From IMG/VR virus record IMGVR_UViG_3300045284_000156, positions 1 to 43,500 of that record: a DNA stretch of 43,500 nt; one strand, 5' to 3'. Both the position numbers and the translations under genes were made by a program. Source of the DNA: a virus. Under the pieces are notes generated by a model, which saw nothing but the letters and a program-made list of their open reading frames with translations, made no database searches and had not been told where the DNA came from. This document shows, piece by piece, positions 3,467-17,811 of the stretch (position 1 is its first letter; each line of letters opens with the position of its first letter).

Positions 3467-3669
3467 ACACCGACACGATCACCCGCCGCTACTTCGATAT
3501 CCGCCCGGAGGCTCACAAGAAGATGCGTTGCGCGAAGTGCCGCGGCTTCCTGCTCGAAGGCGAAGCCGCCGTGACCGTCACCGGCCCGGGCTGGACGCAC
3601 GCCGAGCACGACGACCCGTGCCCGGCCCTCGCGCCGATGCAGAACCCCGACCGCCGAGTAGTCCAATGA
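3463..3669 (+). CDS. Small putative zinc-binding protein
   Basis: 68 residues from GTG 3463, overlapping the preceding stop (GTGA). It contains CAKC (about residues 23-26), then H-A-E-H and a Cys (HAEHDDPC, about 46-53), consistent with a C2-H-C metal site. Part of the operon driven from 2838. Function unknown. Confidence 0.65.
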   Translation: MNTDTITRRYFDIRPEAHKKMRCAKCRGFLLEGEAAVTVTGPGWTHAEHDDPCPALAPMQNPDRRVVQ

Positions 3670-3683
3670 CCAGGAGGAACCGC

Positions 3684-3965
3684 ATGGACGACCGACCTTT
3701 GCGTCTCGTCGGCTCGCCGCTCGTCGAGGACGCCTACGGGCTCCGCGACGCGACCGAGCCCGACGACCAGACCGACGAATGGAAGCAAGGCTGGCGAGCC
3801 TGCCGCGAGATGCTCGGAGAGGAATGGGCGGTCTGGTACGCGAGAGGCGTCGCCGCCCGAGACGACGAGTCGCCCGCCGGAGGCAGCGTCGTGATCGCGT
3901 TCGGGATCCTCGCGCTCGTCGGGTTCATCGTCGGGTTCCTCCTCGCGGTGGCGATCTTCGCATGA
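3684..3965 (+). CDS. Small membrane protein with C-terminal transmembrane helix
   Basis: 93 residues. AGGAGG (3672-3677) sets the start at ATG 3684; an ATG at 3666 is less likely. Residues 1-65 are soluble and acidic, and about 69-92 form one hydrophobic segment (VVIAFGILALVGFIVGFLLA), giving a tail-anchored topology with the N-terminus probably in the cytoplasm. It overlaps the next gene (ATGA). Role unknown; tail-anchored phage proteins can act in lysis control or exclusion. Confidence 0.65.
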   Translation: MDDRPLRLVGSPLVEDAYGLRDATEPDDQTDEWKQGWRACREMLGEEWAVWYARGVAARDDESPAGGSVVIAFGILALVGFIVGFLLAVAIFA

Positions 3966-4294
3966 CGCTGATCCCCGCACGCGAAGGCTGGGAGCTATCC
4001 CGAGAGAAGCGCCGCGTCCGCAGCGAGCTACGCACCCACGTGCAGCACGGCGGCTCGCTCGCTCTGCTCCTCACGCTCCGGCACCACGAGGAGCTAGACG
4101 CCGTGCCCGTCGAGAAGCTCCTCCGCTGGATCCCCGGCGTCGGCGCGACCCGCGCGCGACGCCTCCTCCTCGGCCTGCCCGCCGCCGCTCGCCTCGGCGA
4201 ACTGAACCCCGCCGAGTACGCCGCGCTCGTCAGACGCGTCCGCGAACTCGAACTCCGCCTCATCACCAGCCAGTTCCACAACCCGAAGGGATAA
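3962..4294 (+). CDS. mIHF-like (actinobacterial integration host factor type) DNA-binding protein
   Basis: 110 residues from ATG 3962. The order REKRRVRSELRTHVQHGGSL, then VPVEKLLRWIPGVG and ATRARRLL matches actinobacterial mIHF: a basic helix (about 15-30), then the H2TH segment (about 49-72) with its P-x-V-G-x-x-x-A core, as in ribosomal protein uS13. mIHF binds and bends DNA and serves recombination and nucleoid structure. A viral copy may organise the viral genome or replace the host protein. The C-terminus diverges from cellular mIHF. Confidence 0.7.
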   Translation: MTLIPAREGWELSREKRRVRSELRTHVQHGGSLALLLTLRHHEELDAVPVEKLLRWIPGVGATRARRLLLGLPAAARLGELNPAEYAALVRRVRELELRLITSQFHNPKG

Positions 4295-4296
4295 GC

Positions 4297-4527
4297 GTGC
4301 CGACGAGCTACACGATCCTCACGTACGACCACGACGAGACAGGCGACCTGTACCGCGAAGTCGGAGTGCAGACCGCCGCGAACCCGAGCGCCGCGCTCCG
4401 CGCACACTTCAACCAGAACGACACCGAAGCAGGCGACGAGTTCGTCATCGTGCCGACCAGCAACATGCATCGCCTCACCGCCGTCGTCGAGACGCGACGG
4501 CAACTCACACTCACGGAGGGAACATGA
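4297..4527 (+). CDS. Hypothetical protein
   Basis: 76 residues from GTG 4297, with AAGGG a few bases upstream. Small, soluble, likely alpha/beta (SYTILTYDHDE at the start, a beta strand EFVIVPT near residue 50). No recognised motif. It sits between the mIHF-like gene and a secreted protein and overlaps the latter by four bases. Confidence 0.6.
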   Translation: MPTSYTILTYDHDETGDLYREVGVQTAANPSAALRAHFNQNDTEAGDEFVIVPTSNMHRLTAVVETRRQLTLTEGT

Positions 4528-5129
4528 TCCGCAAGCCGCTCCTGATCCTCGGAGGCGTCCTCGCCTCCCTCGCCGCGACCGTTACCCCCGCGGCGGCTCA
4601 CACCGGATCGGTCGAGTGCGACGCGACCGGCGTGGTGTTCCACTACAACGCGAACTTCGAGCGCGACACGTACGTCACCGAGAACGTCGGAGACGCTCAG
4701 CGCCTCGTCCTCGTCCGCGCGCACCAGTCCGGCGGCGACACGTGGCTCGGCGTTACCGGGACCGTCACCGCCGGAGCGTCGTGGCGGTACGGCTCGATCC
4801 CTACCAGGACACTCGAATGCCCCGCCCCCCCGACGCCGCCCGCGCCCCCGGCAGCGCCCCCCGCGCCCCCGGCCGCTCCTCCCGTCGTGACGCCGCCCGC
4901 AGCGCCCCCGGCTCCGCCCGCAGTCGTCACGCCGCCCGCGGCACCGCCGGCCATTCCTACGCCTCCGGTGAAGAAGCTCCCGAAGCCGAAGTGCCCGCGG
5001 TACACGTACCGCATCAGCTACCGGCACGGCGTCCTCGTCTGCGGGAAGAACGTCATCAAGATCCGAGTCGTGCACGACCACAAGCCGAAGCGCGCGACGC
5101 CCGTCCCGCCGGGCGGCGTAACCGGATGA
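4524..5129 (+). CDS. Secreted protein with Pro/Ala-rich linker
   Basis: 201 residues from ATG 4524 with GGAGGG just upstream. Residues 1-26 form a signal peptide (basic start, hydrophobic core, PAAAHT cleavage region). About 27-98 form a small domain with two Cys (VECDATG, LECPAPP), then a low-complexity linker of repeated PPAAPPAPP and VVTPPAAPP units to about 150, and a basic tail with two more Cys (PKCPRYTY, VLVCGKN). The layout suggests a cell-envelope or periplasm-exported protein spanning a thick wall. Early secreted phage proteins can act in lysis or superinfection exclusion; no enzymatic motif is seen. Confidence 0.7.
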   Translation: MIRKPLLILGGVLASLAATVTPAAAHTGSVECDATGVVFHYNANFERDTYVTENVGDAQRLVLVRAHQSGGDTWLGVTGTVTAGASWRYGSIPTRTLECPAPPTPPAPPAAPPAPPAAPPVVTPPAAPPAPPAVVTPPAAPPAIPTPPVKKLPKPKCPRYTYRISYRHGVLVCGKNVIKIRVVHDHKPKRATPVPPGGVTG

Positions 5130-5329: not shown

Positions 5330-5847
5330 AGCTCGCGCTGATCGCGCTGCTCGCGTTACCGGGAGTGGCTCACGCGGGCACCGTCGTCGCCGACACCACG
5401 CGACTGATCGCCCCCGGCATCAGCGTCGCATGCGTCGCTCCCGCGCAGATGAGTGACCCGAGCGACGAAGGCGAGACGTACCAAGTCAGCGACGCGAACG
5501 GCTCGACGTTCGAGCCGCTGATCGTCCTCAGCCTCGACACGTGCGCGGGCGTCACGCGGATGCGGGAGCACCGCAACGTCTACGCCGTAGACGGAGCCGT
5601 GAGCCTCGCGACGCTCCTGCACGAAGCGGAGCACCTCAAGCTCAACAGCGGCAACGAGGCGCTCGTCGAGTGCACCGCGATGCACAAACTGAGGTTCTGG
5701 TTGACGCGGTTCGGGTACCGCGGGAAGCTCCGCGCCTCGATGCTCCGCGGAGCGTGGCTCGTCCACGACAACATGGCTATCCAGTACACCGCGGGATGCG
5801 CGAGCCCGACGACACCGAAGCCGATCGCGAGGAGTACGCATGGATGA
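5323..5847 (+). CDS. Secreted HExxH-motif protein (putative zinc metallopeptidase)
   Basis: 174 residues from ATG 5323. Residues 1-18 are a signal peptide with an AHA cleavage site. LLHEAEH places a zinc-protease HExxH at 100-104, with Glu112 or Glu116 as possible third ligand, and four Cys could form disulfides. The protein is shorter than classical metallopeptidases and resembles small secreted HExxH proteins seen in some phages. Likely role: acting outside the membrane in host wall remodelling, lysis or cleavage of surface proteins. The motif is clear; substrate and activity are inferred. Confidence 0.6.
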   Translation: MVKLALIALLALPGVAHAGTVVADTTRLIAPGISVACVAPAQMSDPSDEGETYQVSDANGSTFEPLIVLSLDTCAGVTRMREHRNVYAVDGAVSLATLLHEAEHLKLNSGNEALVECTAMHKLRFWLTRFGYRGKLRASMLRGAWLVHDNMAIQYTAGCASPTTPKPIARSTHG

Positions 5848-6187
5848 GGAGCACAGGACGCTCGGGTTCAACCCGAACGACCCAGGAGCATGGGAGCCGG
5901 ACGAGCCGCGCGTCAGCATCGAGGATTGCATCGCGATGAGCGAGGACGGCGACTGGTACGCGTTCCGCCGCGACGGCTCCACGAGCCGCCCGCAGATCAT
6001 GGCGGCGGTATGCCGCGACGGGGAGGAGCACGGCGCGGCGTGGTTCGAGATCCTCGAAGCGTTCCGCGGCGTCCGCGTCGGCTGGGTCACAGAGAGCGAG
6101 GAGAACCCCGGCATCGGCTGGTGGAGCGAATGCGACCACGACACGCCCGGCGCTGTCCCCGCGTGGATCGTCGAGAGGAAGCCGTGA
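5840..6187 (+). CDS. Hypothetical acidic protein
   Basis: 115 residues from ATG 5840, overlapping the previous gene by eight bases. Rich in Asp, Glu and Trp (GDWYAFRRDG, VRVGWVTESEENPGIGWW) with no recognised motif. Its compact aromatic, acidic make-up is typical of small phage inhibitors such as anti-restriction DNA mimics, but that is only a resemblance in composition. Confidence 0.6.
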   Translation: MDEEHRTLGFNPNDPGAWEPDEPRVSIEDCIAMSEDGDWYAFRRDGSTSRPQIMAAVCRDGEEHGAAWFEILEAFRGVRVGWVTESEENPGIGWWSECDHDTPGAVPAWIVERKP

Positions 6188-6363
6188 CTAACTGGAAGCT
6201 CCACGAGGCGAAGCAGGACACCGAGTGCTCGCTCTGCTCCGCCGAGATCGAACGCGGCGAGACGATCGTGTACGGCAAGGGAGGGAACGTGACGTGCTCG
6301 GAATGCATCGGCCCGGCTGCCTACCCGAAGCCGGTCCGCGAGAGCCTCGCAGCCGAGCGGTGA
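6184..6363 (+). CDS. Small zinc-ribbon-like protein
   Basis: 59 residues from GTG 6184, overlapping the preceding stop. Two CxxC pairs (CSLC about residues 15-18 and CSEC about 38-41), with a strand-turn (AEIERGETIVYG) between, make a convincing zinc ribbon. Last gene before the GGGTATAACCC element at 6370. Partner unknown. Confidence 0.65.
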   Translation: MTNWKLHEAKQDTECSLCSAEIERGETIVYGKGGNVTCSECIGPAAYPKPVRESLAAER

Positions 6364-6369
6364 CGGACC

Positions 6370-6380
6370 GGGTATAACCC
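6370..6380 (+). promoter_or_regulatory. GGGTATAACCC inverted repeat (putative operator or -10 region)
   Basis: GGGT and ACCC arms flank ATA, and the symmetry extends to CCGG on both sides (6368-6383). It is the first of five copies of this element in the window and lies six bases before the ATG of a ribbon-helix-helix protein gene, so autoregulation is the simplest reading. TATAAC inside it could also serve as a -10 box for a near-leaderless transcript. Confidence 0.55.
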
Positions 6381-6385
6381 CGGGT

Positions 6386-6640
6386 ATGTCGGCGACGAGG
6401 AGAGCGGACAGCAAGCGCGACCCGCTGATCGCTCTGCGCGTGCCCGCCGCCCTCGACGCCGCCCTACGCGCTGAGGCGAAGGCCAACGACTCGTCCCTCT
6501 CGGAGATAGTCCGCAGCGCGTTAGAAGCCCACCTAGCCACGCCTGCCACGCCGCGAGCGATAACCCGCCGCGTCTCCGACGGCTGTAAGCACCGCGTCCG
6601 GCCGGGCTCGTTCTGCAAACGATGCGAGCGGACGATATGA
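6386..6640 (+). CDS. Ribbon-helix-helix DNA-binding protein
   Basis: 84 residues from ATG 6386. Residues about 10-52 (RDPLIALRVPAALDAALRAE, then NDSSLSEIVRSALEAHL) have the strand and two helices of the CopG/Arc-type fold, which binds operators as dimers through the strand. The C-terminus adds CKH and CKRCE (about 67-81), a likely small metal site. It sits right after an inverted repeat that recurs in the window and just before the terminase genes, so it may control the accessory and packaging region. Confidence 0.75.
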   Translation: MSATRRADSKRDPLIALRVPAALDAALRAEAKANDSSLSEIVRSALEAHLATPATPRAITRRVSDGCKHRVRPGSFCKRCERTI

Positions 6641-7230
6641 CCAAGCCTCTCCCTCCCGACGAACTCGCCCGCCGACGCAAGACACACAAGCCGCCCGGAC
6701 AGAAGCCGAAGCGGCGCGGCGGAGCGGTCGGACCCGTCAGCGGCAAGCAGATGATCGAGAGCGCCGAGCGGCAAGCGCGAGCGGTGCAACTCAGAGTGGC
6801 CGGAGCTTCGCTTCAGCAGATCGCGGACACGGTGGGGTTCGCGAATCCGAGCGGCGCGCACGCGGCGATCATGCGCGCGTTGCGGGAGATGCTGCCCGAG
6901 CAGGAACGCGCCGACGCTCGCCGCCTGGAGATCGCGAAACTCGACCGCCTAGAGATGGCAGCGTGGCCGCGAGCGATGGGAGCGGGCGAGGACGCCGACC
7001 GCGCAGCCGGGACGATCCTGCGGTGCATCAGCATGCGCGCGAAGATCCTCGGCCTCGAAGCGCCCGCGGCGCTCGACGTCCGCGTCCGCGAAGGCGACCT
7101 CGTTCACGTCGAGATCCTCGAAGTCCTGAACGAGCACGCGCTCGAAGCCCTCCGGCCGTTCCAGGACGAGATGGTGCGCCTGTCCCGGCAGCGCGCCGGG
7201 CAGCGCGTTATCGACGTCGAAGCGACGTGA
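6637..7230 (+). CDS. terS: Terminase small subunit
   Basis: 197 residues; ATG 6637 overlaps the preceding stop (ATGA), with an in-frame ATG at 6622 as alternative. The basic N-terminus is followed by a helix-turn-helix (AGASLQQIADTVGFANPSGA, about 55-75) and a helical part (RRLEIAKLDRLEMAAWPRAM, about 95-140) ending MRAKILGLEAP, the pattern of actinophage small terminases. It recognises the packaging site and regulates the large subunit, encoded immediately downstream with a four-base overlap. The cos or pac site is therefore likely nearby. Confidence 0.85.
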   Translation: MTKPLPPDELARRRKTHKPPGQKPKRRGGAVGPVSGKQMIESAERQARAVQLRVAGASLQQIADTVGFANPSGAHAAIMRALREMLPEQERADARRLEIAKLDRLEMAAWPRAMGAGEDADRAAGTILRCISMRAKILGLEAPAALDVRVREGDLVHVEILEVLNEHALEALRPFQDEMVRLSRQRAGQRVIDVEAT

Positions 7231-8642
7231 GCTCCCGCGACTCGATCCTGCCCGCCAGCGCGCTCGTGCTGCCGTCGAGCTTCATGCTCGCAGGCAGCCG
7301 CGGCCAGTTGTACGTGCCTCGGCATATCGTCGCGATCGAACGGTTCGTGCTCGCAGCGATCGCTCGGGGGGATCAGATGCTCACGATCGAAGCTCCGGTG
7401 CGCTGCGGCAAATCGACGTACGTGGATCACTACCTCCCGGCGTGGTTCCTCGGGACGTTCCCGCAGAAGCACGTCGGCATCGCGAGCCACGAGCAGAGCT
7501 TCGCTACCAGCTGGGGCGCGAAGGGCAGAGACACGCTCGTCGAGTACGGCTCCAGCTTCGGCGTCAGCGTCACGCGAGACACGCGCTCGCGATCCTGGTG
7601 GGAGATCGAGAAGCACGGCGGGTCGATGCGGAGCTTCGGCATCAAGGGAGGCGGGATCACCGGCCGCGGCTTCGACCTCCTCATCCTCGACGACCTGATC
7701 AAGAACGCCGCCGACGCCGACTCCCCCGTCATCCGCGAGAGCCAAGTGGAGTTCCTGCGCGGCACCGCGATGAGCCGCCTCGAGCCCGGCGCGACGCTGA
7801 TCGTGATGATGGCGCGCTGGCACGAGGACGACCTGATCGGCTGGATCCACCGCGAGATGCCCGGCCAGTTCCAGCGGCTCCGCTTGCCTGCGATCGCGGA
7901 GGAGCCGAGCGCGGAGTTCCCGCAGGATCCCCTCGACCGCGAGCCCGGCGAGCCGCTCTGGCCTGAACGGTTCCCGATCGAGAACCTCGCCCGCCGCCGC
8001 GAGCGATCCGGCGAGTATTACTTCAACGCTCTCTACCAGCAGCGACCGTCAAGCCCGACCGGCAGCGTGTTCCACCGCGACTGGTGGCGACGCTTCGACG
8101 CTCCCCCGATGCAGTTCGACACGATGATGTGGAGCTGGGATCTCAGCTTCAAGGACAGCGAGGACTCCTCGTTCGTCGTCGGCCAGGTGTGGGCGTCGCG
8201 CGGCGCGGACTTCTACCTCCTGCACCAAGTCCGCGGACAGTGGGACTACCCGACCACGAAGCGCCGACTCGTCGCCGAGACGAGCGACCCGCGCTGGGCG
8301 CAAGCCGCGAGCGCGATCTACGTCGAGGACAAAGCGAACGGCCCGGCGATCATCGCCGACCTCCGCCACGAACTCGGCGGCATGATCCCCGTGCAGACCG
8401 GCACCGACTCGAAGCTCGCCCGCGCGCGCAGCGTCAGCGGGTACGTCGAGGCGGGGAACGTGTACCTCCCGAGCAACGGCCCGTGGACAGCGGGCTTCAT
8501 CGAGGAGCACGCCGCGTTCCCGAAGGGAGCGCACGACGACCAGGTAGACGCCACGAGCCAGGCGCTACGGAAGCTCCTGGAGCGACGCGGCGGCGTGACC
8601 GTCGAACCGTTCGGCGAGCTACCACAACCCGCCCGCCGCTAG
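7227..8642 (+). CDS. terL: Terminase large subunit (packaging ATPase/nuclease)
   Basis: 471 residues from GTG 7227. ATPase domain: Walker A APVRCGKST (56-64), Walker B LLILDD (151-156) and the coupling segment MMARWHEDD. RNase-H-like nuclease domain: Asp305 in WSWDLSFKDSE, Glu367/Asp368 in YVEDKANGP and HDDQVDA (436-442). It powers DNA translocation into the prohead and cuts the concatemer. All key residues appear present and the length is normal. A strong hairpin follows the stop. Confidence 0.95.
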   Translation: MSSRDSILPASALVLPSSFMLAGSRGQLYVPRHIVAIERFVLAAIARGDQMLTIEAPVRCGKSTYVDHYLPAWFLGTFPQKHVGIASHEQSFATSWGAKGRDTLVEYGSSFGVSVTRDTRSRSWWEIEKHGGSMRSFGIKGGGITGRGFDLLILDDLIKNAADADSPVIRESQVEFLRGTAMSRLEPGATLIVMMARWHEDDLIGWIHREMPGQFQRLRLPAIAEEPSAEFPQDPLDREPGEPLWPERFPIENLARRRERSGEYYFNALYQQRPSSPTGSVFHRDWWRRFDAPPMQFDTMMWSWDLSFKDSEDSSFVVGQVWASRGADFYLLHQVRGQWDYPTTKRRLVAETSDPRWAQAASAIYVEDKANGPAIIADLRHELGGMIPVQTGTDSKLARARSVSGYVEAGNVYLPSNGPWTAGFIEEHAAFPKGAHDDQVDATSQALRKLLERRGGVTVEPFGELPQPARR

Positions 8643-8647
8643 AACGG

Positions 8648-8678
8648 GACGAGCCCCCGCTGGGGACGGGGGCTCGTC
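8648..8678. terminator. Strong terminator hairpin between convergent genes
   Basis: GACGAGCCCCCG (8648-8659) and CGGGGGCTCGTC (8667-8678) form a perfect 12-bp stem with a 7-base loop. It lies between the end of terL (+) and the end of the collagen-like gene (-), so it can end transcription in both directions. No long U-run, as is common in high-GC bacteria. Confidence 0.75.
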
Positions 8679-8718
8679 GTCGTACCGGCGCGGAAGGGAA
8701 CGCGCCTATCACGGGGGA

Positions 8719-9534
8719 CTACTGGAGAATATCCCCGGTGTTCGGCGGACCCGCGATGCCGTTCCAGTTGTACTGGTTCGTGGCGGTGTTGTACTGGAAC
8801 TGATCGCTGCCGACAGCGGGCGGCGTGCTCGTGCCGAAGAAGCTATTGAAGAACGCTCCGGCTGGGCAGCCCGCGGCGCACATGGCGGTGAAGTCGAAGT
8901 GCGCCGAGAAGTCCACGTACACGCGGATCCCGTGGAACTTGCCGGTCACTCCGGCGGAGACGCGCGAGCCGCCGAAGCCGCAGCCGCCGGAGCCACGCGG
9001 ACTGTTGATCGTGGCGTCCGCGGGGTACGTCGAGATCGGAGCGAGATCGCCCGAGTTCACGACGAACGTTCCCTCGCGGATCTCCACGACGTTGAACAAC
9101 CCGGCGACGGTCGGCGTGACGACGTACGTGACGTTACCGGTGTCCGTCGCCCACTGAGGACCGCCGCACACCTGGTTGTGATCCAGCTGGGTGTACGCGA
9201 ACGGGCCGAACGTGAGCGGCGTGACGCCTGCGCCTGCCGGGCCGGGAGCGCCGGGCGAACCGGCCGCTCCGGGAGCGCCGGGAGCGCCGCTGCCGCCGAC
9301 GCCTGCGCTCACGCCTGCGATGCCCTGCGGCCCGCGGTCGCCCTGCGGGCCGGTCTTTCCCTTGAGCGCCTTGACCGCTCCGGCGGTGAGCTTGTTCGCG
9401 CCGATCGTGTGGTTCTTGATCTTCGAGCCGTTGATCAGCCCGGTCGCTGCGACTGCGGCACCGATGCCGGACAGCGCGACGAGGAGAGCGAGCACGCTCA
9501 CGAAGAGCGGGACGCGACGGACGAGAGCACGCAC
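8719..9534 (-). CDS. Secreted collagen-like (Gly-X-Y) protein, probable moron
   Basis: 271 residues; the start is GTG 9534-9532 with AGGAGG ten bases upstream on the - strand. Residues 1-30 form a signal peptide or anchor. TGLINGSKIKNHTIGANKLT and AVKALKGKTG (about 31-62) is a segment I know from exported proteins of Thermoleophilia and related bacteria. About 59-103 is a Gly-X-Y tract, and the rest is a beta-rich domain with four or more Cys. Opposite strand to packaging genes, own control region and terminator: a moron probably taken from a host. It could alter the host surface or be a virion fibre. Confidence 0.75.
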   Translation of the reverse strand: MRALVRRVPLFVSVLALLVALSGIGAAVAATGLINGSKIKNHTIGANKLTAGAVKALKGKTGPQGDRGPQGIAGVSAGVGGSGAPGAPGAAGSPGAPGPAGAGVTPLTFGPFAYTQLDHNQVCGGPQWATDTGNVTYVVTPTVAGLFNVVEIREGTFVVNSGDLAPISTYPADATINSPRGSGGCGFGGSRVSAGVTGKFHGIRVYVDFSAHFDFTAMCAAGCPAGAFFNSFFGTSTPPAVGSDQFQYNTATNQYNWNGIAGPPNTGDILQ

Positions 9535-9584
9535 GGGGTACCTCCTGGTTGGGAACCCGCCGGATCCTACACGCCCGACGGGAC

Positions 9585-9595
9585 GGGTATAACCC
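9585..9595 (+). promoter_or_regulatory. GGGTATAACCC inverted repeat in divergent region
   Basis: Perfect second copy of the element at 6370, extended by C and G to 13 bp (9584-9596). It lies between the divergent starts of the collagen-like gene (9534, -) and the GNAT gene (9609, +), so one bound regulator could control both. TATAAC (9588-9593) would also make a -10 box about 16 bases before GTG 9609. Confidence 0.55.
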
Positions 9596-9608
9596 GAGTC
9601 GTGATCGC

Positions 9609-10010
9609 GTGACGCCGTACGCGCTAAGACTCATCCGCGAGTGTTTCCCCGGCACGCTGTACCCGCTGCCCGACGAGAGCGTCGAGACGAGCGTGGACGG
9701 GCTGGTGGTTTGCCATGTCGGGATCTTCTGGCGCACGCTCGAACTCGCCGAGCACGACCCGCTCGAAGTCACGGGCATCGGCCTCGTCTGCACGCACCCG
9801 TCCTGGCGACGCCTCGGGCTCGCGTCGGCGCTGCTCGAAGTCGCCCGACGCCGCGGCGCGCTGCACAACCGGCCACACCTCGCGCTATTCGCCGGCCAGT
9901 CTGAGAGCGCGTTGTACTGCGCCGCGGGGTACGGCGACACGAACGTGCCGACGCTGCTTACGCTGCCGCTGCTCGGCACTCCGGTGACTGATCGAGGGGA
10001 GCGTTGGTGA
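9609..10010 (+). CDS. GNAT-family N-acetyltransferase
   Basis: 133 residues from GTG 9609. VTGIGLVCTHPSWRRLGLAS and ALLEVARRR (about 54-82) is GNAT motif A: a beta strand, the pyrophosphate-binding RRLGLA (67-72, pattern R/Q-x-x-G-x-A) and the following helix. The HVGIFWRTL...VTGIGLV arrangement resembles aminoglycoside 2'-acetyltransferase relatives. It transfers acetyl from acetyl-CoA to an amine. First gene of the sugar-transfer island and overlapping the next gene, so a nucleotide-sugar, glycan or modified-base amine is a reasonable substrate, but this is inferred. Confidence 0.75.
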   Translation: MTPYALRLIRECFPGTLYPLPDESVETSVDGLVVCHVGIFWRTLELAEHDPLEVTGIGLVCTHPSWRRLGLASALLEVARRRGALHNRPHLALFAGQSESALYCAAGYGDTNVPTLLTLPLLGTPVTDRGERW

Positions 10011-10651
10011 GGCTCGAAGGGATGCCGCCGCGGATCGCGGTTCTGCAAATCAGCGACGGCCGCGGCTTGCTCGGCGAGTCGATGCGCTCGTGGCACGCGA
10101 ACGCGCGGCAGTACGACCTCGCGACGATCGTGCACGTGGACGACTCGCATCACTTGCTCGGGTTCTGCGGCGCGATCCGGTACGGCTGGGATCGCCTGCG
10201 CGAATCGAAGGACGCGTTCGATTTTGTGTGGCATCAGGAGGAGGACTGGCGGTACGACAAGCCGTTCAGCATCGCTCACATGGCGCGCGTGCTCGACACC
10301 GAGCCGCGTATCGCGCAAGTCGCGCTCCGGCGAGGGCGGGAGCACTCGGAGCCCGCGGCGGTGATCGACGCGTTCCCGGAGGAGTTCGTGGATCGCTCGA
10401 CGGGGATCATCGGGTACGGCGAGCCGACCCGCTCGCAAGAGTGGCTGGAGCACCGCTTGTTCTGGACGACGAACCCGAGCCTGTACCGCGTCGAGCTACT
10501 CGACGTGTATCAGTGGCCGGAGGGTCCGAACTGCGAGGCGAGCTTCACCGAGACGCTCGTCGCGGACGGCGCGAGCTTCGCGTACTGGGGCGACCGGCAC
10601 GACCCGGCGTGGATTACGCATACCGGCACTCGGTCCGGCCGGGGCTACTAG
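10007..10651 (+). CDS. Putative glycosyltransferase (GT-A-like)
   Basis: 214 residues from GTG 10007 (TTG 10004 also possible), overlapping the GNAT stop. The start PRIAVLQISDGRG is a beta strand and turn, and the centre FDFVWHQEEDWRYDKPFS (about 70-87) has a HQEEDW acidic cluster in the position of a metal-binding DxD. This matches phage sugar-transferase-like proteins found next to GT2 enzymes. Donor and acceptor unknown. The first of several glycosyltransferases in tandem; the call rests partly on that context. Confidence 0.5.
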   Translation: MRLEGMPPRIAVLQISDGRGLLGESMRSWHANARQYDLATIVHVDDSHHLLGFCGAIRYGWDRLRESKDAFDFVWHQEEDWRYDKPFSIAHMARVLDTEPRIAQVALRRGREHSEPAAVIDAFPEEFVDRSTGIIGYGEPTRSQEWLEHRLFWTTNPSLYRVELLDVYQWPEGPNCEASFTETLVADGASFAYWGDRHDPAWITHTGTRSGRGY

Positions 10652-10654
10652 TAG

Positions 10655-10668
10655 ACTTGACAGGCGCA
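10655..10668 (+). promoter_or_regulatory. Second copy of the ACTTGACAGGCGCA promoter element
   Basis: Identical to 2836-2849 and to the inverted copy at 28200-28213. TTGACA is at 10657-10662, but a 17-bp spacer gives ACGGAG at 10680-10685, which is not a -10. Compared with the other copies, about six bases seem lost between element and CCCTAC. Either the promoter is decayed or the element itself is a regulator site. It precedes GTG 10692. Confidence 0.5.
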
Positions 10669-10691
10669 TCCCCTACCGGACGGAGGACGCG

Positions 10692-11477
10692 GTGAGCCTT
10701 TGGGCGATCCTGCTGGTGAAGGACGAAGCGGACGTGATCGAGCCGGTGCTGCGGCATATCGCGGCGCAGGGAGTCGAGGGCATCATCGTCGCGGACAACG
10801 CCTCGACGGACGGCACTCGCGAGATCATCGAGAGCCTGCGCGACATGGGCTGCCCGCTCGTCGTGCAGGACGACGAGGAGATCGGGTACTGGCAGTCCCG
10901 CAAGATGACGAGCCTCGCGACGCAGGCGCACGCCGCCGGAGCGGAATGGGTCTGGCCTTGCGACGCCGACGAGCTTTGGTACTTCGGCGACACGCAGCGC
11001 CTCGCGGACGTCGTGCGGAAGGCGGACGGCGACGTCCTCCACGCGCGGCTCTGGCACCACTTCGCTACCAGCGTGGACGCGGACGGAGCGAACCCGTTCG
11101 AGCGGATGGTGTACCGCGGGCAGGAAGCTCCGATCGGGAAGGTCATCGTCCGGTGGCGCGACGGCGCGATCATCGAGGCGGGGAACCACGGCGCGATCCT
11201 CCCCGGCTCCCCCGCGCCGTCGAGCGTGCGGGACGTGCAGATCCGGCACTTCCCGTACCGCAGCGCCGACCAGTTCGTTAGGAAGGCAGTGAACGGGTCG
11301 AGAGCGTACGCAGCGACGGACTTGCCGTACGGGATCGGGCAGCACTGGCGCGAGTACGGCGTCCTGTACCAGAAGGGCGGCGAGGAAGCACTACGCGCGG
11401 CGTACCACGCGCACTTCCACTACGACCTCCCGAGCGCGGACGGCCTCGTGTACGACCCCGCTAGGCTCGACGCATGA
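10692..11477 (+). CDS. GT2-type glycosyltransferase
   Basis: 261 residues from GTG 10692 with GGAGG (10682-10686) upstream. GT-A hallmarks: N-terminal strand SLWAILLVKDEADV, the nucleotide-binding DNASTDGT (35-42) and the metal-binding DAD at 91-93. A later His/Arg-rich stretch (VQIRHFPYRS) is typical of this branch. It transfers a sugar from a nucleotide-sugar donor. Encoded in a run of unrelated GT2 genes, implying a branched or multi-sugar product. Confidence 0.85.
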   Translation: MSLWAILLVKDEADVIEPVLRHIAAQGVEGIIVADNASTDGTREIIESLRDMGCPLVVQDDEEIGYWQSRKMTSLATQAHAAGAEWVWPCDADELWYFGDTQRLADVVRKADGDVLHARLWHHFATSVDADGANPFERMVYRGQEAPIGKVIVRWRDGAIIEAGNHGAILPGSPAPSSVRDVQIRHFPYRSADQFVRKAVNGSRAYAATDLPYGIGQHWREYGVLYQKGGEEALRAAYHAHFHYDLPSADGLVYDPARLDA

Positions 11478-12031
11478 CCCTCCTCCCGCCGCTCGTGATC
11501 ACCCCGAGCCGACCCGACCGCACGCCGCTGCTCGCGGAGGCGTACGCGAGCGTCGAGGCGCAGACGATCGCGTGCACTCACCTGATCGGCATCGACCACG
11601 CCGGGGAGGGACCGGCGCTGATCCGCAACGCAGCGATGCGGCACTCGCCGCACCCGGTGGTCGCGTTCCTCGACGACGACGACCTGATGGATCCCGACCA
11701 CCTCGAAGTTCTCACGATGGCTCTGGTCGAGCACGAGGCGGATCTCGTGTTCTCGTGGTACCGCAAGCAAGGCTCGACGCCGGAGACGGAGCGCATCCAC
11801 GTGTGGGACGACTACGCGTACGGCGTCATGCTGGGCGGCAGGAACCTGATCCCCGTCACCGTCGTCGCTCGGCGCGAGGCGATCCTCGACGCCGGAGGCT
11901 TCGACCCCGACGATCGTTACGAGGACTACGCGTTGTGGATGCGGATGCTCGCGCAAGAGGCGCGCATCGTCGTCGTCCCCCGCGAAACGTGGACATACCG
12001 AATGCTGGGAGACAACCGAACATGGACGTAG
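11474..12031 (+). CDS. GT2-type glycosyltransferase
   Basis: 185 residues from ATG 11474, overlapping the previous stop. Short GT-A fold: LVITPSRPDR start, acidic metal motif FLDDDDLMDPDH (DDDD at 67-70), GGF (141-143) and the catalytic-base region YEDYALWMRM (ED at 150-151). At 185 residues it is close to a minimal catalytic domain, without membrane or acceptor domain. The next gene starts inside its last codons. Confidence 0.85.
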   Translation: MTLLPPLVITPSRPDRTPLLAEAYASVEAQTIACTHLIGIDHAGEGPALIRNAAMRHSPHPVVAFLDDDDLMDPDHLEVLTMALVEHEADLVFSWYRKQGSTPETERIHVWDDYAYGVMLGGRNLIPVTVVARREAILDAGGFDPDDRYEDYALWMRMLAQEARIVVVPRETWTYRMLGDNRTWT

Positions 12032-12564
12032 TGATGGGCCCGGATCCCCGCCCGGACGTGCCTACCGAAGGCATGCATATCTGGGGCTGGATGAGCAACA
12101 TCGAACTGGAGTGGCTCGGCAAGCAAGCGGCGAAGATGGACTCGATCGTCGAGGTAGGCAGCCTGCATGGCCGCAGCGCGTTCATGCTCCTGTCCCGATG
12201 CAAAGGGCCGGTGTACTGCATCGACCCGTGGAACGACGTGCACCGGCAGAGCTTCGGATCGTTCTACTCGAACTGCGGGCACTTCGAGAACCTCCGCATG
12301 ATCCAGGGGTACTCGCCCGCGGCGATCTACACCGACGACCTCCCGGACGTAGACATGGTGTTCCTCGACGGAGCGCACGACTACGACAGCGTGGCCGCGG
12401 ACGTAACGCACTGGCTCCCCAAGACGCGGAAACTCATCTGCGGGCACGACTATCAGAACTCGGACGGCGGCTACCCGGACGTCAAGACCGTCGTCGTCGA
12501 GGAGTTCGGCGACCGCGTACGCGTCGCCCCCGAGACAGCGATCTGGTACGTCGAGCTCACGTGA
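12022..12564 (+). CDS. Class I SAM-dependent methyltransferase
   Basis: 180 residues from ATG 12022, ten bases inside the end of the preceding gene; GGGAG precedes. Motif I is IVEVGSLHG (42-50), the acidic ribose-binding residue is probably Asp68 in CIDPW, and VDMVFLDGAHDYDSV (110-124) is motif IV. This pattern matches the Methyltransf_24 group, often found with glycosyltransferases and acting on sugars or small molecules. Lying between GT2 genes, methylation of a transferred sugar is a good guess. No DNA-methylase NPPY or PPC motif is present. Confidence 0.8.
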   Translation: MDVVMGPDPRPDVPTEGMHIWGWMSNIELEWLGKQAAKMDSIVEVGSLHGRSAFMLLSRCKGPVYCIDPWNDVHRQSFGSFYSNCGHFENLRMIQGYSPAAIYTDDLPDVDMVFLDGAHDYDSVAADVTHWLPKTRKLICGHDYQNSDGGYPDVKTVVVEEFGDRVRVAPETAIWYVELT

Positions 12565-13199
12565 AGCTCCACGCGGTCATCGTCAGCTATCGCCGCCTGC
12601 CGCTATTGCAGGGCTGCGTCTCGTCATTCCTCTCCACCGTCACGATCCCGCACTCCCTCGTCGTCGTAGACAACGGCAGCCCGAGCGACGTCCGCGACTG
12701 GATCAAGCGCGACGCGAAGAAGAACGGGTACCGCTTCGCGCTGCTCGCCGAGAACCACTACCCCGGGTACGCCGCGAACCGCGGCTTCGAGATGGCTCCC
12801 CCCGACGCGGATCTCCTCATGCGCTCCGACAACGACTGCGCGTGGCTCCCCGGGTGGGACAGCGAACTCGCGGACGTGTTCAGCGACCCGAGCGTCGGGC
12901 AGTACGGCCCGACCGCCGCAGGCGACGAGCGATGGACGCGCCTCGCTGGCTGGCCCGTCGGAGGCAACTCGATCATCCGCAAGAGCATGTTCGACGACGG
13001 CCTCCGCTACGACGAGACTCCCTGGCCCGAAGCGAGCATGCAGGAGGATCACTGCCTGTACGAAGCGATCCGCGGCATGGGCTACAAACGCGTGTGGGCG
13101 AGCAAGCCATGCCTGGCGTACACCGGCATGCGCGACCCCGACTACGACCGCGAAGTCACCGAAGCCCGCGGCCACATATGGACGGACTACCGCTTGTGA
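12561..13199 (+). CDS. GT2-type glycosyltransferase
   Basis: 212 residues from GTG 12561, overlapping the methyltransferase stop. GT-A motifs: HAVIVSYRRLPLL start, VVDNGS (35-40), a DxD-like MRSDNDCAW (SDND at 89-92), GNSIIRKSMF and MQEDHCLYEAI as catalytic-base region. Closest in pattern to the gene at 13196, with which it may form a duplicated pair of different specificity. Confidence 0.85.
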   Translation: MKLHAVIVSYRRLPLLQGCVSSFLSTVTIPHSLVVVDNGSPSDVRDWIKRDAKKNGYRFALLAENHYPGYAANRGFEMAPPDADLLMRSDNDCAWLPGWDSELADVFSDPSVGQYGPTAAGDERWTRLAGWPVGGNSIIRKSMFDDGLRYDETPWPEASMQEDHCLYEAIRGMGYKRVWASKPCLAYTGMRDPDYDREVTEARGHIWTDYRL

Positions 13200-13891
13200 T
13201 CACCGCGCTCGTCCCGGTCAAGAACCAGTGGCACCACACGCGCGCGCTGCTCGACTGCCTCGCGGGCGAGCCGTGCCGCATGCTCGTCCTCGACAACGGC
13301 TCGACGGACGAGACGGAGCACGGCCTGCGCCTCGCGCAGCACGGAGCGTGGCGCGGCCGACTCAGCTTCACCCGCAAGCCCGACCTCAGCATCTACCAGC
13401 TATGGAACGTCGGCTTTAAGCGGATCGCCGCCGAGCAAGGCTGGCGCGACGAGTGGTTCGTCCTCGTCACCAACAACGACATACTCCTCCCCCCGGGCGC
13501 GCTCGACGCCATGCGCCGGCCACTCGACACCCACCCCGCCGCATGGGTGAGCTACCCCGACTACGACGCGCCGCAGACAAGCACCCCGAGCGGCGCGTAC
13601 CGCGAAACGCGAGGCGTCCTGTCCGACGGCGGAATGTTCGGCGCATGCTTCCTCCTCGCCGGGCACAAGATCCCCTGGCGACCGCTCGTCACCGACACGA
13701 CATACGAATGGTGGTACGGAGACAACCACCTCGCGGAGGAGATCGAGCAGCACGGCGGCAAGCAGATCCGAGTCGAGGGCCTCCCCGTGCAGCACGTCAA
13801 CGAGGGCACCGCGAGCCTGATGCACGAGAGCGACCTATGGGGCATGAAGTACCGCGACTACCACCGCTGGACAACGAGGTACTCCCGATGA
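13196..13891 (+). CDS. GT2-type glycosyltransferase
   Basis: 231 residues if started at GTG 13196 (overlapping the previous stop); an upstream in-frame ATG at 13178 would add six residues. Motifs: ALVPVKNQWHHTRALLDCL, VLDNGSTDET (31-40), VTNNDI (91-96) in place of DxD, FGACFLLAG and DNHLAEEIEQHGGK as the probable catalytic-base region. It transfers a sugar from an activated donor; acceptor unknown. Confidence 0.8.
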   Translation: MITALVPVKNQWHHTRALLDCLAGEPCRMLVLDNGSTDETEHGLRLAQHGAWRGRLSFTRKPDLSIYQLWNVGFKRIAAEQGWRDEWFVLVTNNDILLPPGALDAMRRPLDTHPAAWVSYPDYDAPQTSTPSGAYRETRGVLSDGGMFGACFLLAGHKIPWRPLVTDTTYEWWYGDNHLAEEIEQHGGKQIRVEGLPVQHVNEGTASLMHESDLWGMKYRDYHRWTTRYSR

Positions 13892-14043
13892 CCCGCGAAG
13901 AAGCCACCCGCATCCTCGACCGCGAATTCGTCCGAGCCTTCAACGAAGCATGGCTCCACGTCCACCTGCCCGACAAGCCCTACGCGCTCCCCACCATCCG
14001 AGCGATCGCGCAACGCCTCGGCATGCAAGAGACGAAGCGATGA
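13888..14043 (+). CDS. Small hypothetical protein
   Basis: 51 residues from ATG 13888, with four-base overlaps to both neighbours. Helical and charged (REEATRILDREFVRAFNEAW), with an ending (TIRAIAQRLGM) that could be part of a helix-turn-helix. Its place inside the glycosyltransferase run suggests co-expression rather than function. Confidence 0.5.
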   Translation: MTREEATRILDREFVRAFNEAWLHVHLPDKPYALPTIRAIAQRLGMQETKR

Positions 14044-15017
14044 GGATCGGCGCGCACCTCCGGCACGCAGCACCCGACCACCCCGCCGGAGCCGAATGGT
14101 CGATCACCGACGCGTTCACATGGCTCGAAACACGCAAACACCACACACGCATCCTCGCCGAACAAGCACCCCGACCCCCCACCCAAGACCACCACGCCGA
14201 GCACTACCAAACCAGCGACATCATGCTCACCCAACTCGACGCGATCCCCAACGCCATGCTCCTCGCCTCCACCTACCAAACGCCGCTCGTGCACTACATC
14301 CACAGCCCCAACCAACTCGACCGCCTCGGCGTCATGCCCGACTGCGCAGCCCTCATCGCCTACAACACGCAGCACGTCGCCGACGCCACGCGAGACTGGC
14401 CCGGCCCGAGCATCGTCCTACGCCCACCGATCAACACCGACCGCGTACGCGTCACGCCAGGAGCCTGCACCACCCTTATAAACCTCAGCGCCCAGAAGGG
14501 CGGCAACCGCTTCTACAGACTCAAGGAACGCATGGACGAGATCCCGTTCCTCGGCGTCCAGGGCGCGTACGATCATCAGGTTCTCGCGCCGGACGGCCTC
14601 GCGCTCGGGCCGTTCGAGAACTCCTCGACGGGCCTGCCTCCGAACATGCAAGTTCTCCCGCCGCAGCCGGATATCCGCGCGGCGCTGGGTTATACCCGCG
14701 TGCTGCTGGTGCTGAGCGCGAGCGAGACGTACGGCCGCGTCGCTGCGGAGGCAGCGGTGTCGGGGATCCCGACGATCGCGTACCCGACGCCGGGCCTCCG
14801 CGAAGCCCTGGGGGACGCGGCGGTGTGGGTAGACCCGGACGACTCGGCGGGACTGGAGCGCGCGGTGCGCGCGGCGTACACGCCTGCGTGGGACGAGTGG
14901 AGCGCGAACGCTCTCGCGCAGGCAGACGCGAACCATGCGAGGCAGGAGCGCGAGCTTCGCGCGTTCGAGCGAGCCCTACGACGGATCAAGAGGGAGCAAC
15001 CCGTGATGACGCTATGA
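14040..15017 (+). CDS. GT4-like (GT-B) glycosyltransferase, mosaic composition
   Basis: 325 residues from ATG 14040. The C-terminal half has the GT-B donor-site signature: SASETYGRVAAEAAVSGIPT (from about residue 226) and AYPTPGLREALGDAAVW, with the catalytic E-x7-E region. The N-terminal acceptor domain is more divergent (HYIHSPNQLDRLG, YNTQHVADAT). Base use changes sharply inside the gene: in 14101-14160 C outnumbers G (25 to 11), in 14701-14760 G outnumbers C (27 to 16), suggesting a recombination joint near 14500-14570. It also contains an inverted GGGTTATACCC copy at 14687. The only GT-B enzyme here. Confidence 0.8.
   Translation: MRIGAHLRHAAPDHPAGAEWSITDAFTWLETRKHHTRILAEQAPRPPTQDHHAEHYQTSDIMLTQLDAIPNAMLLASTYQTPLVHYIHSPNQLDRLGVMPDCAALIAYNTQHVADATRDWPGPSIVLRPPINTDRVRVTPGACTTLINLSAQKGGNRFYRLKERMDEIPFLGVQGAYDHQVLAPDGLALGPFENSSTGLPPNMQVLPPQPDIRAALGYTRVLLVLSASETYGRVAAEAAVSGIPTIAYPTPGLREALGDAAVWVDPDDSAGLERAVRAAYTPAWDEWSANALAQADANHARQERELRAFERALRRIKREQPVMTL
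14687..14697 (-). promoter_or_regulatory. GGGTATAACCC element (reverse orientation, intragenic)
   Basis: GGGTTATACCC on the + strand is the exact reverse complement of the elements at 6370 and 9585. It lies inside the GT4 gene, so it may be an intragenic operator or reflect coding constraint. Confidence 0.4.
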
Positions 15018-15313
15018 GCACGCCCGACCACGCCGTTGACCCGTTCGACCCGCCGCGGGACTGGCTGCACTACCACGCGAAGAACGCCGAGCACGTCGCG
15101 CGCCTAGAACGCCGCCTCGCTCTCGTCGAGGAGCGCGTGGGTATAACCGCGGGTATAACCGCGCCCTCCCCGCAGGAGCCCGTACACGCCGTCGAGGAGC
15201 CGCGGTACACGCACCCCGCCGGAGTCGTCCCGCCGCACGTGGCTCTGAACCTCCGCGCGTTGCGCGAGTGGATCGACGTGGCGCTGGCTGGCGGGGACGT
15301 GCCGCGGCCATGA
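15014..15313 (+). CDS. Hypothetical protein with tandem operator-like repeats in its gene
   Basis: 99 residues from ATG 15014, overlapping the GT4 stop. Residues about 15-45 form a likely helix (HAKNAEHVARLERRLALVEE), followed by GITAGITA, encoded by the 12-bp tandem repeat at 15139-15160, then a Pro-rich stretch and a C-terminal helix (NLRALREWIDVALAG). No family recognised. Confidence 0.55.
   Translation: MSTPDHAVDPFDPPRDWLHYHAKNAEHVARLERRLALVEERVGITAGITAPSPQEPVHAVEEPRYTHPAGVVPPHVALNLRALREWIDVALAGGDVPRP
15139..15160 (+). promoter_or_regulatory. Tandem GGGTATAACC elements, 12 bp apart
   Basis: Two copies at 15139-15148 and 15151-15160 are spaced 12 bp centre to centre, about one helical turn, so proteins bound to them would face the same side. 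Both lie in coding sequence. They upgrade the element from a pair to a family of five sites in the window. Confidence 0.5.
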
Positions 15314-15465
15314 CGCTGCGACTGGCACGCATCGCGTTCCGCCTCGCGTGGTGGCGCGGCGAGGATCACAACCGTCGCGTCCGCGCGCTGGAGTGGAGCT
15401 TCATGCACTGCGGCTCGCGCTGGCGCAGGGCGATCCTCACGTACGGAGAGGAGCGCAACCGATGA
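15310..15465 (+). CDS. Small basic protein
   Basis: 51 residues from ATG 15310, overlapping both neighbours by four bases. Arg/Trp-rich (MTLRLARIAFRLAWWRGEDH) with an amphipathic first helix that could touch membranes or nucleic acid. Function unknown. Confidence 0.5.
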   Translation: MTLRLARIAFRLAWWRGEDHNRRVRALEWSFMHCGSRWRRAILTYGEERNR

Positions 15466-15608
15466 GCGACTGGCCGCAGGAGAAGCCGCCGCCGTACCCC
15501 GCCGACGACGAGGACAAGACCGAGCCGTGCCCGCCGCCGGTACCGCCGCCGGACGTGTGGGAGTTCTACCGTCGCCACGGCCGCTGGCCGAACCCGGAGG
15601 AAGCATGA
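15462..15608 (+). CDS. Small Pro-rich acidic protein
   Basis: 48 residues from ATG 15462. Pro-rich first half (EKPPPYPADDEDK, CPPPVPPPD) and a C-terminal aromatic segment (VWEFYRRHGRWPNPEEA). No family recognised; chained by ATGA overlaps to both neighbours. Confidence 0.5.
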   Translation: MSDWPQEKPPPYPADDEDKTEPCPPPVPPPDVWEFYRRHGRWPNPEEA

Positions 15609-15781
15609 CTGACGCGACCACAGCAGCCAAGCTACGGATTTGCCACTACTGCAAGGGGCCGATCCCCGACGACGAGCGGGCAATCGAAGCCGCCACCAAG
15701 AACGGGTGGGCGCATTTCGAGTGCTGGTACGACGGAGGGCCTCCTTTCGAGCGTGACCCCGAGACGGGCAGGCAAAAGTGA
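15605..15781 (+). CDS. Small zinc-finger-like protein
   Basis: 58 residues from ATG 15605. CHYC (13-16) and HFEC (37-40) form a C2-H-C type metal site resembling treble-clef or ribbon proteins. Its first nine codons (MTDATTAAK) are identical to those of the next gene through a 25-base DNA repeat. Confidence 0.6.
   Translation: MTDATTAAKLRICHYCKGPIPDDERAIEAATKNGWAHFECWYDGGPPFERDPETGRQK
15606..15630 (+). repeat. 25-bp direct repeat, copy 1
   Basis: The 25 bases starting TGACTGACGCGACC occur exactly at 15606-15630 and 15779-15803, covering the 5' ends of two adjacent genes. The 173-bp unit between their starts looks like an insertion or duplication by homologous slippage. Confidence 0.9.
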
Positions 15782-16041
15782 CTGACGCGACCACAGCAGC
15801 CAAAGCCATCCAGGCCGAGCACACCGTTCCTAACGGCTATTGCGCCTATTGCGACGACGGCGAGCCGTGCCCGTCCCGCGAGGACGCGGGGGTTGTGTTG
15901 GCGCAACTCAACGAAGCCATCGAGAAGCTAGTCGGAGCCTTGGGAGAACTGGACTCCTACGAAGGTGAAGAGGATCGTGAGGGATTCGCCTACGCCAACA
16001 TCAAGGCTGCGATGGCGTGCCTGCGGGGCGAGGACTCGTGA
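15778..16041 (+). CDS. Hypothetical protein with Cys-rich N-terminus
   Basis: 87 residues from GTG 15778, overlapping the previous stop. After the shared MTDATTAAK start it has CAYC (22-25) and CPS (31-33) with a nearby His, a possible metal site, then a helix (LAQLNEAIEKLVGALGEL). Codons in 15640-16020 use more A/T-ending forms than neighbours, hinting at separate acquisition. Confidence 0.6.
   Translation: MTDATTAAKAIQAEHTVPNGYCAYCDDGEPCPSREDAGVVLAQLNEAIEKLVGALGELDSYEGEEDREGFAYANIKAAMACLRGEDS
15779..15803 (+). repeat. 25-bp direct repeat, copy 2
   Basis: Exact second copy of 15606-15630; here the frame starts with GTG instead of ATG. The coding sequences diverge completely after the repeat. 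Confidence 0.9.
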
Positions 16042-16487
16042 ACACCGACAAGTGGGATCGAGTCGCCGCGACGTTCGAGCACCCCGAGTACGAACCGCCG
16101 AACGGCTGGGCGTCATGGGAATACCTGGCGAGCCAGGAAGCCGCGACGATCCGCCGCGCACTGCCGCTCGAAGTCGAGACGATCGTCGAAGTCGGCTCGG
16201 GTGTCGGCAGGCTCACGCCGTACCTCGCGCTCTGCTTCATCTACGTCACCGCTACCGACACCAGCGCGGCTTGCCGACGCGTGACTCGGCAGCGATGCGC
16301 GCACCGGCCGAACGTGAAGGTACGCGAGCAGGGCTTCCCGCTCGCCGACGCCGCCGTCGTATGGGGACGCCTGTACGACGACGACTGGCCCGAGCTGGCG
16401 GTCATGTTCCACCGCCGCGAGCTACGACGCGAGTACGCGTTCGTGCTCGAAGGCGCGGAGAGCGCATGGCACCTCTACTCGCAGTGA
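16038..16487 (+). CDS. Class I SAM-dependent methyltransferase
   Basis: 149 residues from GTG 16038, overlapping the previous stop. Motif I TIVEVGSGVGRLTPYLA (48-64) and an acidic residue in TATDTS (Asp74) bind SAM. The protein is short: the later strands are compressed and the C-terminus (FVLEGAESAWHLYSQ) ends early, so it may be a minimal enzyme. Substrate unknown; a second methyltransferase follows at once. Confidence 0.75.
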   Translation: MNTDKWDRVAATFEHPEYEPPNGWASWEYLASQEAATIRRALPLEVETIVEVGSGVGRLTPYLALCFIYVTATDTSAACRRVTRQRCAHRPNVKVREQGFPLADAAVVWGRLYDDDWPELAVMFHRRELRREYAFVLEGAESAWHLYSQ

Positions 16488-16522
16488 ACCACTGGCACGC
16501 CTACGACGCATGGGAGGCACGC

Positions 16523-17167
16523 ATGAACCAGGAGACGAGAGACGCGGTACGCGACGGCTGCAAGCAGAGCGCCGCGGTCGTACTGCCGATGATCTTCGAC
16601 ACGCTCGGCACGCCCGCATGCCTACTCGACGTCGGCTGCGGCGAAGGCTGGTGGTGCCAAGCCGCGCTCAACCTCGACGTGCGGAACGCATACGGCGTGG
16701 ACGCCGACACGATCTACGGCGCGCACTGGGACGCGGAGGAAGGCGCGCCGCTGCCTATGTTCATGACCGCTCAGCGCGGCGAGAAGTGGGACGTCGCGCT
16801 CTGCCTGGAGATGGCCGAGCACGTCTCTCCCGCCGCGGGCGACTGGCTCGTCTCCGAGCTATGCCGCGTCGCTCGCGCCGTCGTGTGGAGCGCGGCGATC
16901 CCCGGGCAGGGCGGAGACGGGCACGTCAACGAGCAGTGGCCCGACTACTGGACGGATCGCTTCAACGAGAACGGCTGGGTGATGACCGACCCGTTTCGCG
17001 ACACGCTCTGGCAATCCCCGAGCGTCGAGCCGTGGTACCGGCAGAACTTGCTAGCGGCCTTCCCCTCGGACTCGTTCTTCGCAGTGGACGCCGAGCCGAT
17101 TCGCGCGCTGGTCGATCCCGTAACGTGGGCGTACCATCGAGGCGTCCCCGGACCCGGAGAGAACTGA
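16523..17167 (+). CDS. Class I SAM-dependent methyltransferase
   Basis: 214 residues. GGGAGG (16511-16516) points to ATG 16523; GTG 16484, overlapping the previous stop, would add 13 residues. Motif I CLLDVGCGEG (33-42), Asp60 in GVDADT and ALCLEMAEHV (92-101) show a complete SAM fold of the Methyltransf_11/23 type, typical of small-molecule, lipid or glycan methylation. The gene between two methyltransferase/glycosyltransferase sets suggests modification of the same product. Confidence 0.8.
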   Translation: MNQETRDAVRDGCKQSAAVVLPMIFDTLGTPACLLDVGCGEGWWCQAALNLDVRNAYGVDADTIYGAHWDAEEGAPLPMFMTAQRGEKWDVALCLEMAEHVSPAAGDWLVSELCRVARAVVWSAAIPGQGGDGHVNEQWPDYWTDRFNENGWVMTDPFRDTLWQSPSVEPWYRQNLLAAFPSDSFFAVDAEPIRALVDPVTWAYHRGVPGPGEN

Positions 17168-17811
17168 TGCCGAAGATCACGCAGAAGTACCTCACGCAGA
17201 AGTACCGCACCGCGAAACTCGACGAGCTACGCCCGCACCCCGACAACCCGCGGCAAGGCGACGTCGGCGCGATCCACACCAGCATCGAAGCGAACGGCTT
17301 CTACGGCTCGCTCATCGTCCAGAAGAGCACGCAGTACGTCCTCGCCGGGAACCACCGCCTCGTCGCTCTCCGCCAGGCAGGCGCAGCCACGGTGCCCGTC
17401 ATCGAGGTAGACGTAGACGACGCGACCGCGAAGCGGATCCTCCTCGCCGACAACCGCACGAACGACCTCGCGACGTACGACGATCATCACCTCCTCGCGA
17501 TCCTCGCGGCGCTCAGCGACGAGGACGGGCTCGTCGGCACCGGCTACGACCAGGACGACCTCGACGCGCTCGCCCGGCTCGCCGCCGCAGGAGCAGCGCC
17601 GCTCGACCCGACAGCCGAATGGACAGGCATGCCCGACTATACGCAGAAGAACCTCGGCAGCGTGTTCAGCTGCGTGGTGCACTTCCGCAGCGACGCCGAC
17701 GCCGACGCGTTCTTCGAAGGCATCGACCGGCCGAAGCGCAAGAGCTTCTGGTGGCCGACCGACGACGAGCACGTCGGCAGCACCGTGCACGAGCAGCACG
17801 TCGCCGAATGA
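17167..17811 (+). CDS. ParB-like nuclease-domain protein
   Basis: 214 residues from ATG 17167, overlapping the methyltransferase stop. HPDNPR (24-29), VLAGNHRLVALRQAG (58-72) and LLADNRTND (92-100) are the ParB/sulfiredoxin-fold signature, with GNHR holding the nucleotide-binding Arg. No helix-turn-helix of partition ParB is seen; the C-terminus is a separate segment (SVFSCVVHFRSDADADAFFE, then RKSFWWPTDDE). In phages such proteins accompany DNA-modification enzymes, and here it sits directly before the TAGT gene, so a role in DNA modification is more likely than partition. Confidence 0.8.
   Translation: MPKITQKYLTQKYRTAKLDELRPHPDNPRQGDVGAIHTSIEANGFYGSLIVQKSTQYVLAGNHRLVALRQAGAATVPVIEVDVDDATAKRILLADNRTNDLATYDDHHLLAILAALSDEDGLVGTGYDQDDLDALARLAAAGAAPLDPTAEWTGMPDYTQKNLGSVFSCVVHFRSDADADAFFEGIDRPKRKSFWWPTDDEHVGSTVHEQHVAE

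Follow-up and report, generated by a model that had tools for sequence, protein, structure and literature searches.

A repeated dyad at promoter-like positions and inside genes of two related phages, with a ribbon-helix-helix protein as its candidate binder

Why should a phage genome with 68.4% G+C carry five exact copies of the TATAA-containing word GGGTATAACC, and which protein, if any, reads them? The window analyzed here is an entire virus contig of 43,500 bp. TATAA is indeed rare in it, with seven occurrences on the + strand in 43.5 kb; the initial annotation had noted this rarity and had proposed a regulon controlled by the ribbon-helix-helix (RHH) protein encoded at 6386.

The repeated word and its copies inside genes

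An exact-match search of the window returned all five copies where they had been reported. The 12-bp spacing of the tandem pair was confirmed, as was the placement of one copy just before the RHH gene and of another between divergent genes. Two exact 11-mers had been described, both intergenic; this pair stands, and the inverted copy makes a third full 11-mer. The sites and their neighbours are as follows.

6370..6380 (+): site 1, GGGTATAACCC, exact match, intergenic; overlaps the presumed -10 region TATAAC (6373-6378) of RHH-A; its GGGTATAACC 10-mer (6370-6379, +) ends 6 bases before the ATG at 6386
6386..6640 (+): RHH-A, RHH protein of 84 aa carrying a CxH...CxxC knuckle at its C-terminus; presumed binder
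6637..7230 (+): probable small terminase subunit, directly 3′ of RHH-A and before terL; PHROG 645
7227..8642 (+): large terminase subunit (TerL); PHROG 38, E 3.8e-94; Pfam Terminase_6
8719-9534 (-): collagen-like repeat protein, between terL and the GNAT gene
9585..9595 (+): site 2, GGGTATAACCC, exact match, between divergent genes, just before the GNAT gene; GGGTATAACC 10-mer 9585-9594 (+)
9609..10010 (+): GNAT acetyltransferase-like gene, presumed target of site 2; Pfam Acetyltransf_9, 25.4 bits
14687..14697 (-): site 3, inverted GGGTATAACCC, inside the glycosyltransferase gene 14040-15017; 10-mer 14688-14697
15139..15148 (+): site 4, first of the tandem pair, inside gene 15014-15313; in-frame GGT ATA ACC
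15151..15160 (+): site 5, second of the tandem pair, exact match, 12 bp from site 4

Three of the copies, inverted site 3 among them, form the dyad GGGT-ATA-ACCC.

Under an order-3 Markov model 0.0095 exact copies of GGGTATAACC are expected in the window, compared with the five observed, and the word ranks first among window 10-mers by the ratio of observed to expected counts. With up to one mismatch allowed we saw six matches, where dinucleotide shuffles of the window averaged 0.23 and never exceeded 2; the sole one-mismatch form is GGGGATAACC at 28387. Another record, IMGVR_UViG_3300047409_000303 (G002; L003, L083-L085), is 100% identical to positions 19395-43500 and 1-4751 of the window, and joining the two overlapping contigs produced a circular phage map of 57,286 bp. 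The order-3 Markov expectation across this completed 57-kb genome is 0.014, and the map extension beyond the window contains no further copy of GGGTATAACC. A lack of genome-wide enrichment had been named as grounds for refutation, with a count against shuffled controls as the check; the word is in excess over both the shuffle and the Markov nulls. All five copies fall within 6.3-15.2 kb, a region running from the RHH and terminase genes into a glycosyltransferase cluster whose first gene is the GNAT gene. No integrase was recognised in the extension, judged by its predicted proteins, or in the part of the phage genes scanned.

Three of the five sites (3, 4 and 5) are located inside reading frames. 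To assess this we permuted synonymous codons in genes called by a codon-usage script, adding by hand the two RHH-A genes (that of the window phage and that of the relative described below) which the script had missed; the mean number of coding copies was 0.016, and none of 1500 permutations reached the observed three. Sites 4 and 5 read GGT ATA ACC, where ATA accounts for only 12 of the 786 isoleucine codons in called genes. The tandem pair at 15139 and 15151 may have arisen in one 12-bp duplication event, and for this reason it can be counted as one event or two. The homologous glycosyltransferases of two relatives have other residues at the position of site 3 and lack the site; therefore, retention of site 3 for the sake of the protein sequence was rejected. 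Rejected as well was a larger repeat unit, as flanks differ between copies. Suggestive half-sites are present at +12, GGGTAT for site 1 and GGTA for the RHH site of the relative; in a systematic scan, however, most sites had no second match of ≥6/9, and we make no claim for half-sites at a fixed 12-bp spacing beside every operator.

A relative with the same arrangement and a changed word

Searches with portal and terminase found a relative represented by overlapping contigs G003 and G006, which are 99.98% identical in the overlap and yield a joined map of 46,867 bp. Identity to the window phage is 61% for TerL, 60% for the portal and 53% for the small terminase. The RHH-A orthologue of the relative (L089:6325-6603) has the same location, preceding the gene for the small terminase. 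The two RHH-A proteins are 46% identical over aligned positions; both the RHH domain and the knuckle align, the latter being in both proteins a C-terminal C-x-HRV-x2-GS[FY]C-x-RC.

Among the 9-mers of the relative, GGTAATACC is the most over-represented, with seven copies in the joined map versus 0.07 expected. One copy is situated 17 bp before the RHH-A start codon, where it also touches the end of the preceding gene as called; a small gene between terS and terL contains two copies at a distance of 21 bp; another copy is just before the tail gene at 39537, behind a -10-like TAGACT. Five of the seven copies are coding (0.019 expected; 0 of 1500 synonymous permutations). In both phages, then, the repeated word precedes RHH-A, by 6 bp and by 17 bp, as would suit an autoregulated gene.

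Both words are GGT-N3-ACC dyads with equal arms and different centres, and each phage lacks the word of the other. Among all GGT-N3-ACC dyads, 5 of 13 are GGTATAACC in the window phage, and 7 of 11 are GGTAATACC in the relative. The same arms with a changed centre are the pattern expected of an operator that changes along with its protein, if these words are operators. Scans of viral_contigs and phage records produced no RHH-A orthologue beyond the known pair; as only two phages carry RHH-A, co-divergence is argued from a single comparison. A 19-kb relative, G005, has no repeated GGTNNNACC word, but its contig is without the RHH-A region. Tandem GGTATAACC-N3-GGTATAACC was found in viral_contigs in two unrelated contigs of lower G+C, both without RHH-A, and was set aside.

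The proposed regulon can thus be kept in part. Its link to the RHH protein is strengthened by an orthologue that has its own GGT-N3-ACC word upstream, but a simple promoter regulon does not describe the data: promoter-like positions are taken by two of the five copies here and by two of the seven in the relative, the others being inside genes.

The RHH proteins and the promoters

RHH-A of the window phage is assigned to the RHH family, scoring 24.3 bits with Pfam RHH_1 (cut-off 20.5), and matches the PHROG Arc-like repressor; the orthologue of the relative, at 17.6 bits, is below the cut-off. A structure model of RHH-A, weak at pLDDT 70, has helices where expected, and its Foldseek comparison with solved structures produced only weak matches to MazE, VapB, CopG and AmrZ, all with E >1. 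In AmrZ, residues K18, V20 and R22 are required for binding (PMC3325190); this register would place L14, A16 and R18 on the strand of RHH-A, and Leu, Ile and Arg in the relative.

In high-G+C genomes the -10 consensus is TANNNT, and leaderless genes have an A+T box ∼12 bp upstream (PMC3160421). The TATAAC of the 6370 word begins 13 bp ahead of the RHH-A ATG, a distance that fits the leaderless box, though its last base is C and not T. In the relative the operator word is beside a separate -10-like TACACT, 12 bp before the GTG of RHH-A. In L001, a third relative, an ATG shortly behind terL is preceded at 12 bp by a TATAAC that lacks the GGT/ACC arms. We take the promoter box and the operator to overlap in the window phage but to lie apart in the relative. 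A simple sigma-70 scan detected no promoter, and likewise no -35 match, in 5800-15400, and it is thus by position alone that a promoter is placed here.

In both phages the early region encodes a second RHH protein (RHH-B). The window phage has four near-identical early promoters, TTGACA-N17-TATTAT, with the -10 box within CCCCTATTATGGGGG, and two of the four directly precede an ATG, as in the leaderless type.

56721-56885 of the full map (-): RHH-B of the window phage (L083), a second, smaller RHH gene; early region
2918-3094 of the joined map (-): RHH-B of the relative; early region
2837-2872 of the window; 56549-56584 (+), 54840-54873 (-) and 53677-53710 (-) of the full map: the early promoters

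Around RHH-B these promoters carry CCCCTATTATGGGG, a different repeated word; their dyad-like flanks may be the operator of another regulator. In the relative (L089:3094-3150, -) a -10-like GCTAGACT before RHH-B is within a perfect inverted repeat, GGTCGGCGC-GCTAGACTA-GCGCCGACC. We also observed 31 copies of CAGGCGCA in the 57-kb map (3 expected), at many places of the window; the early promoter repeat explains only a part of them.

Interpretation, alternatives and known systems

We consider it very likely that the repeated words are sites of a sequence-specific DNA-binding protein. It is probable, judging from the sequences, that GGGTATAACC(C) is the operator of RHH-A and that RHH-A acts as outlined here. 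RHH-A, as a dimer, would contact the GGT-N3-ACC dyad through a two-stranded sheet placed in the major groove. The operator at 6370 would cover the -10 region of the RHH-A promoter, with a transcript probably beginning at or near the ATG; bound there, RHH-A would thereby repress its own gene and the terminase genes downstream. At 9585 the same control could be exerted over the start of the GNAT/glycosyltransferase cluster. For the three intragenic sites we infer a role as extra binding places, which might slow or stop elongation, or as decoys titrating RHH-A; a true elongation block is possible but rather doubtful.

The most serious alternative, itself unlikely, is that the sites are bound by some other regulator, RHH-B or a host factor. 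As each phage encodes a second RHH protein, the binder could be RHH-B; however, RHH-B has no site nearby, the early promoters there carrying CCCCTATTATGGGG instead, whereas the RHH-A promoter has a site in both phages. FadR/GntR-type operators also have GGT-N-ACC arms, and the resemblance of the GGT-N3-ACC arms to operators of the GntR family makes a host protein of this type conceivable; on the other hand, none of the phage proteins scanned was recognised as the product of a GntR-type gene. One could also propose that the word is merely the -10 box of leaderless transcripts, needing no dedicated DNA-binding protein. The TATAAC of site 1 and its armless counterpart in L001, at 13 and 12 bp from their ATGs, agree with the ∼12 bp of leaderless boxes (PMC3160421). 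Yet the final C departs from TANNNT, GGT and ACC arms do not belong to a promoter, three copies (one inverted) are coding and away from gene starts, and the repeated word of the relative is separate from its -10-like TACACT and TAGACT; we find this explanation improbable.

Sites for packaging or partition, with either the small terminase or the ParB-like protein (17167) as their binder, would account for the clustering of sites near the terminase genes, for the pair between terS and terL in the relative and for a ParB_N protein being encoded by the window phage. Such a function is quite improbable, as the sites of the relative range over 6.3-39.5 kb, unlike a single pac region, and the ParB match covers the N-terminal domain only. 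As for chance, or copies of a larger repeat, the tandem pair may be one 12-bp duplication, but the other copies have unrelated flanks and the excess is far above the shuffle, Markov and synonymous-codon nulls, with the word of the relative in excess too; we regard this possibility as negligible.

With RHH-A as the probable binder, the system is a variant of dispersed phage repressor sites, an already known category. In Cluster A mycobacteriophages (L5, Bxb1), stoperators are copies of a short word repeated over the genome, inside and outside promoters, which block elongation; related phages differ in the word and, with it, in the repressor (PMC6550527, PMC9283540). Their asymmetric site of 13 bp is bound by a repressor monomer (an N-terminal HTH plus a second domain), and its 20-30 copies are in short intergenic spaces, oriented with transcription; the system also confers immunity. 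The two phages analyzed here likewise have one word dispersed over the genome (five and seven copies), also outside promoters. Their word, however, is a near-palindromic dyad found in both orientations, with most copies in genes (3 of 5 here, 5 of 7 in the relative), the copies are only five to seven, and the candidate regulator is an RHH protein; because the symmetry of the site, its placement, the copy number and the protein family all differ, we do not class the system as a stoperator system. If RHH-A binds, this would possibly be a separate origin of stoperator-type control.

With the RHH phage repressors Arc and Mnt of P22, and with autoregulated RHH proteins of the CopG/AmrZ type, RHH-A shares its small size and a predicted operator at its own promoter; dispersed intragenic sites and the C-terminal CxH...CxxC knuckle set it apart. 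At 12-13 bp from the start codon, the A+T box is reminiscent of actinobacterial leaderless promoters (TANNNT) (PMC3160421), from which it differs in its last base, C, and in the presence of the same word inside genes.

The host is probably an actinobacterium; the only hint is the major tail protein, which matches only phages of actinobacteria (24-34% identity). A search for the host through prophages, with portal and TerL scans of genome_contigs, found nothing close. One could speculate, with considerable reserve, that in this probable actinobacteriophage lineage a small zinc-knuckle RHH protein serves as a genome-wide transcription brake through operators in coding sequence, word and protein changing together; this would amount to a stoperator-like scheme based on the RHH fold. 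Provided that RHH-A binds, comparing the two phages amounts to a natural experiment in the joint change of specificity of an RHH protein and its operator. In the reading frames of two diverged phages the word is far beyond expectation, at the cost of rare codons (ATA), and such intragenic sites are easily overlooked by regulon searches restricted to upstream regions.

The genes around and beyond sites 2-5 deserve a separate remark. Window positions 9609-18665 and 25300-25977 encode several glycosyltransferases and methyltransferases, a ParB_N protein and a C5-cytosine methylase, and 17808-18665 strongly matches a TET-associated glycosyltransferase (TAGT; E 3e-38); this glycosyltransferase/methyltransferase cluster looks like a pathway of DNA base hypermodification.
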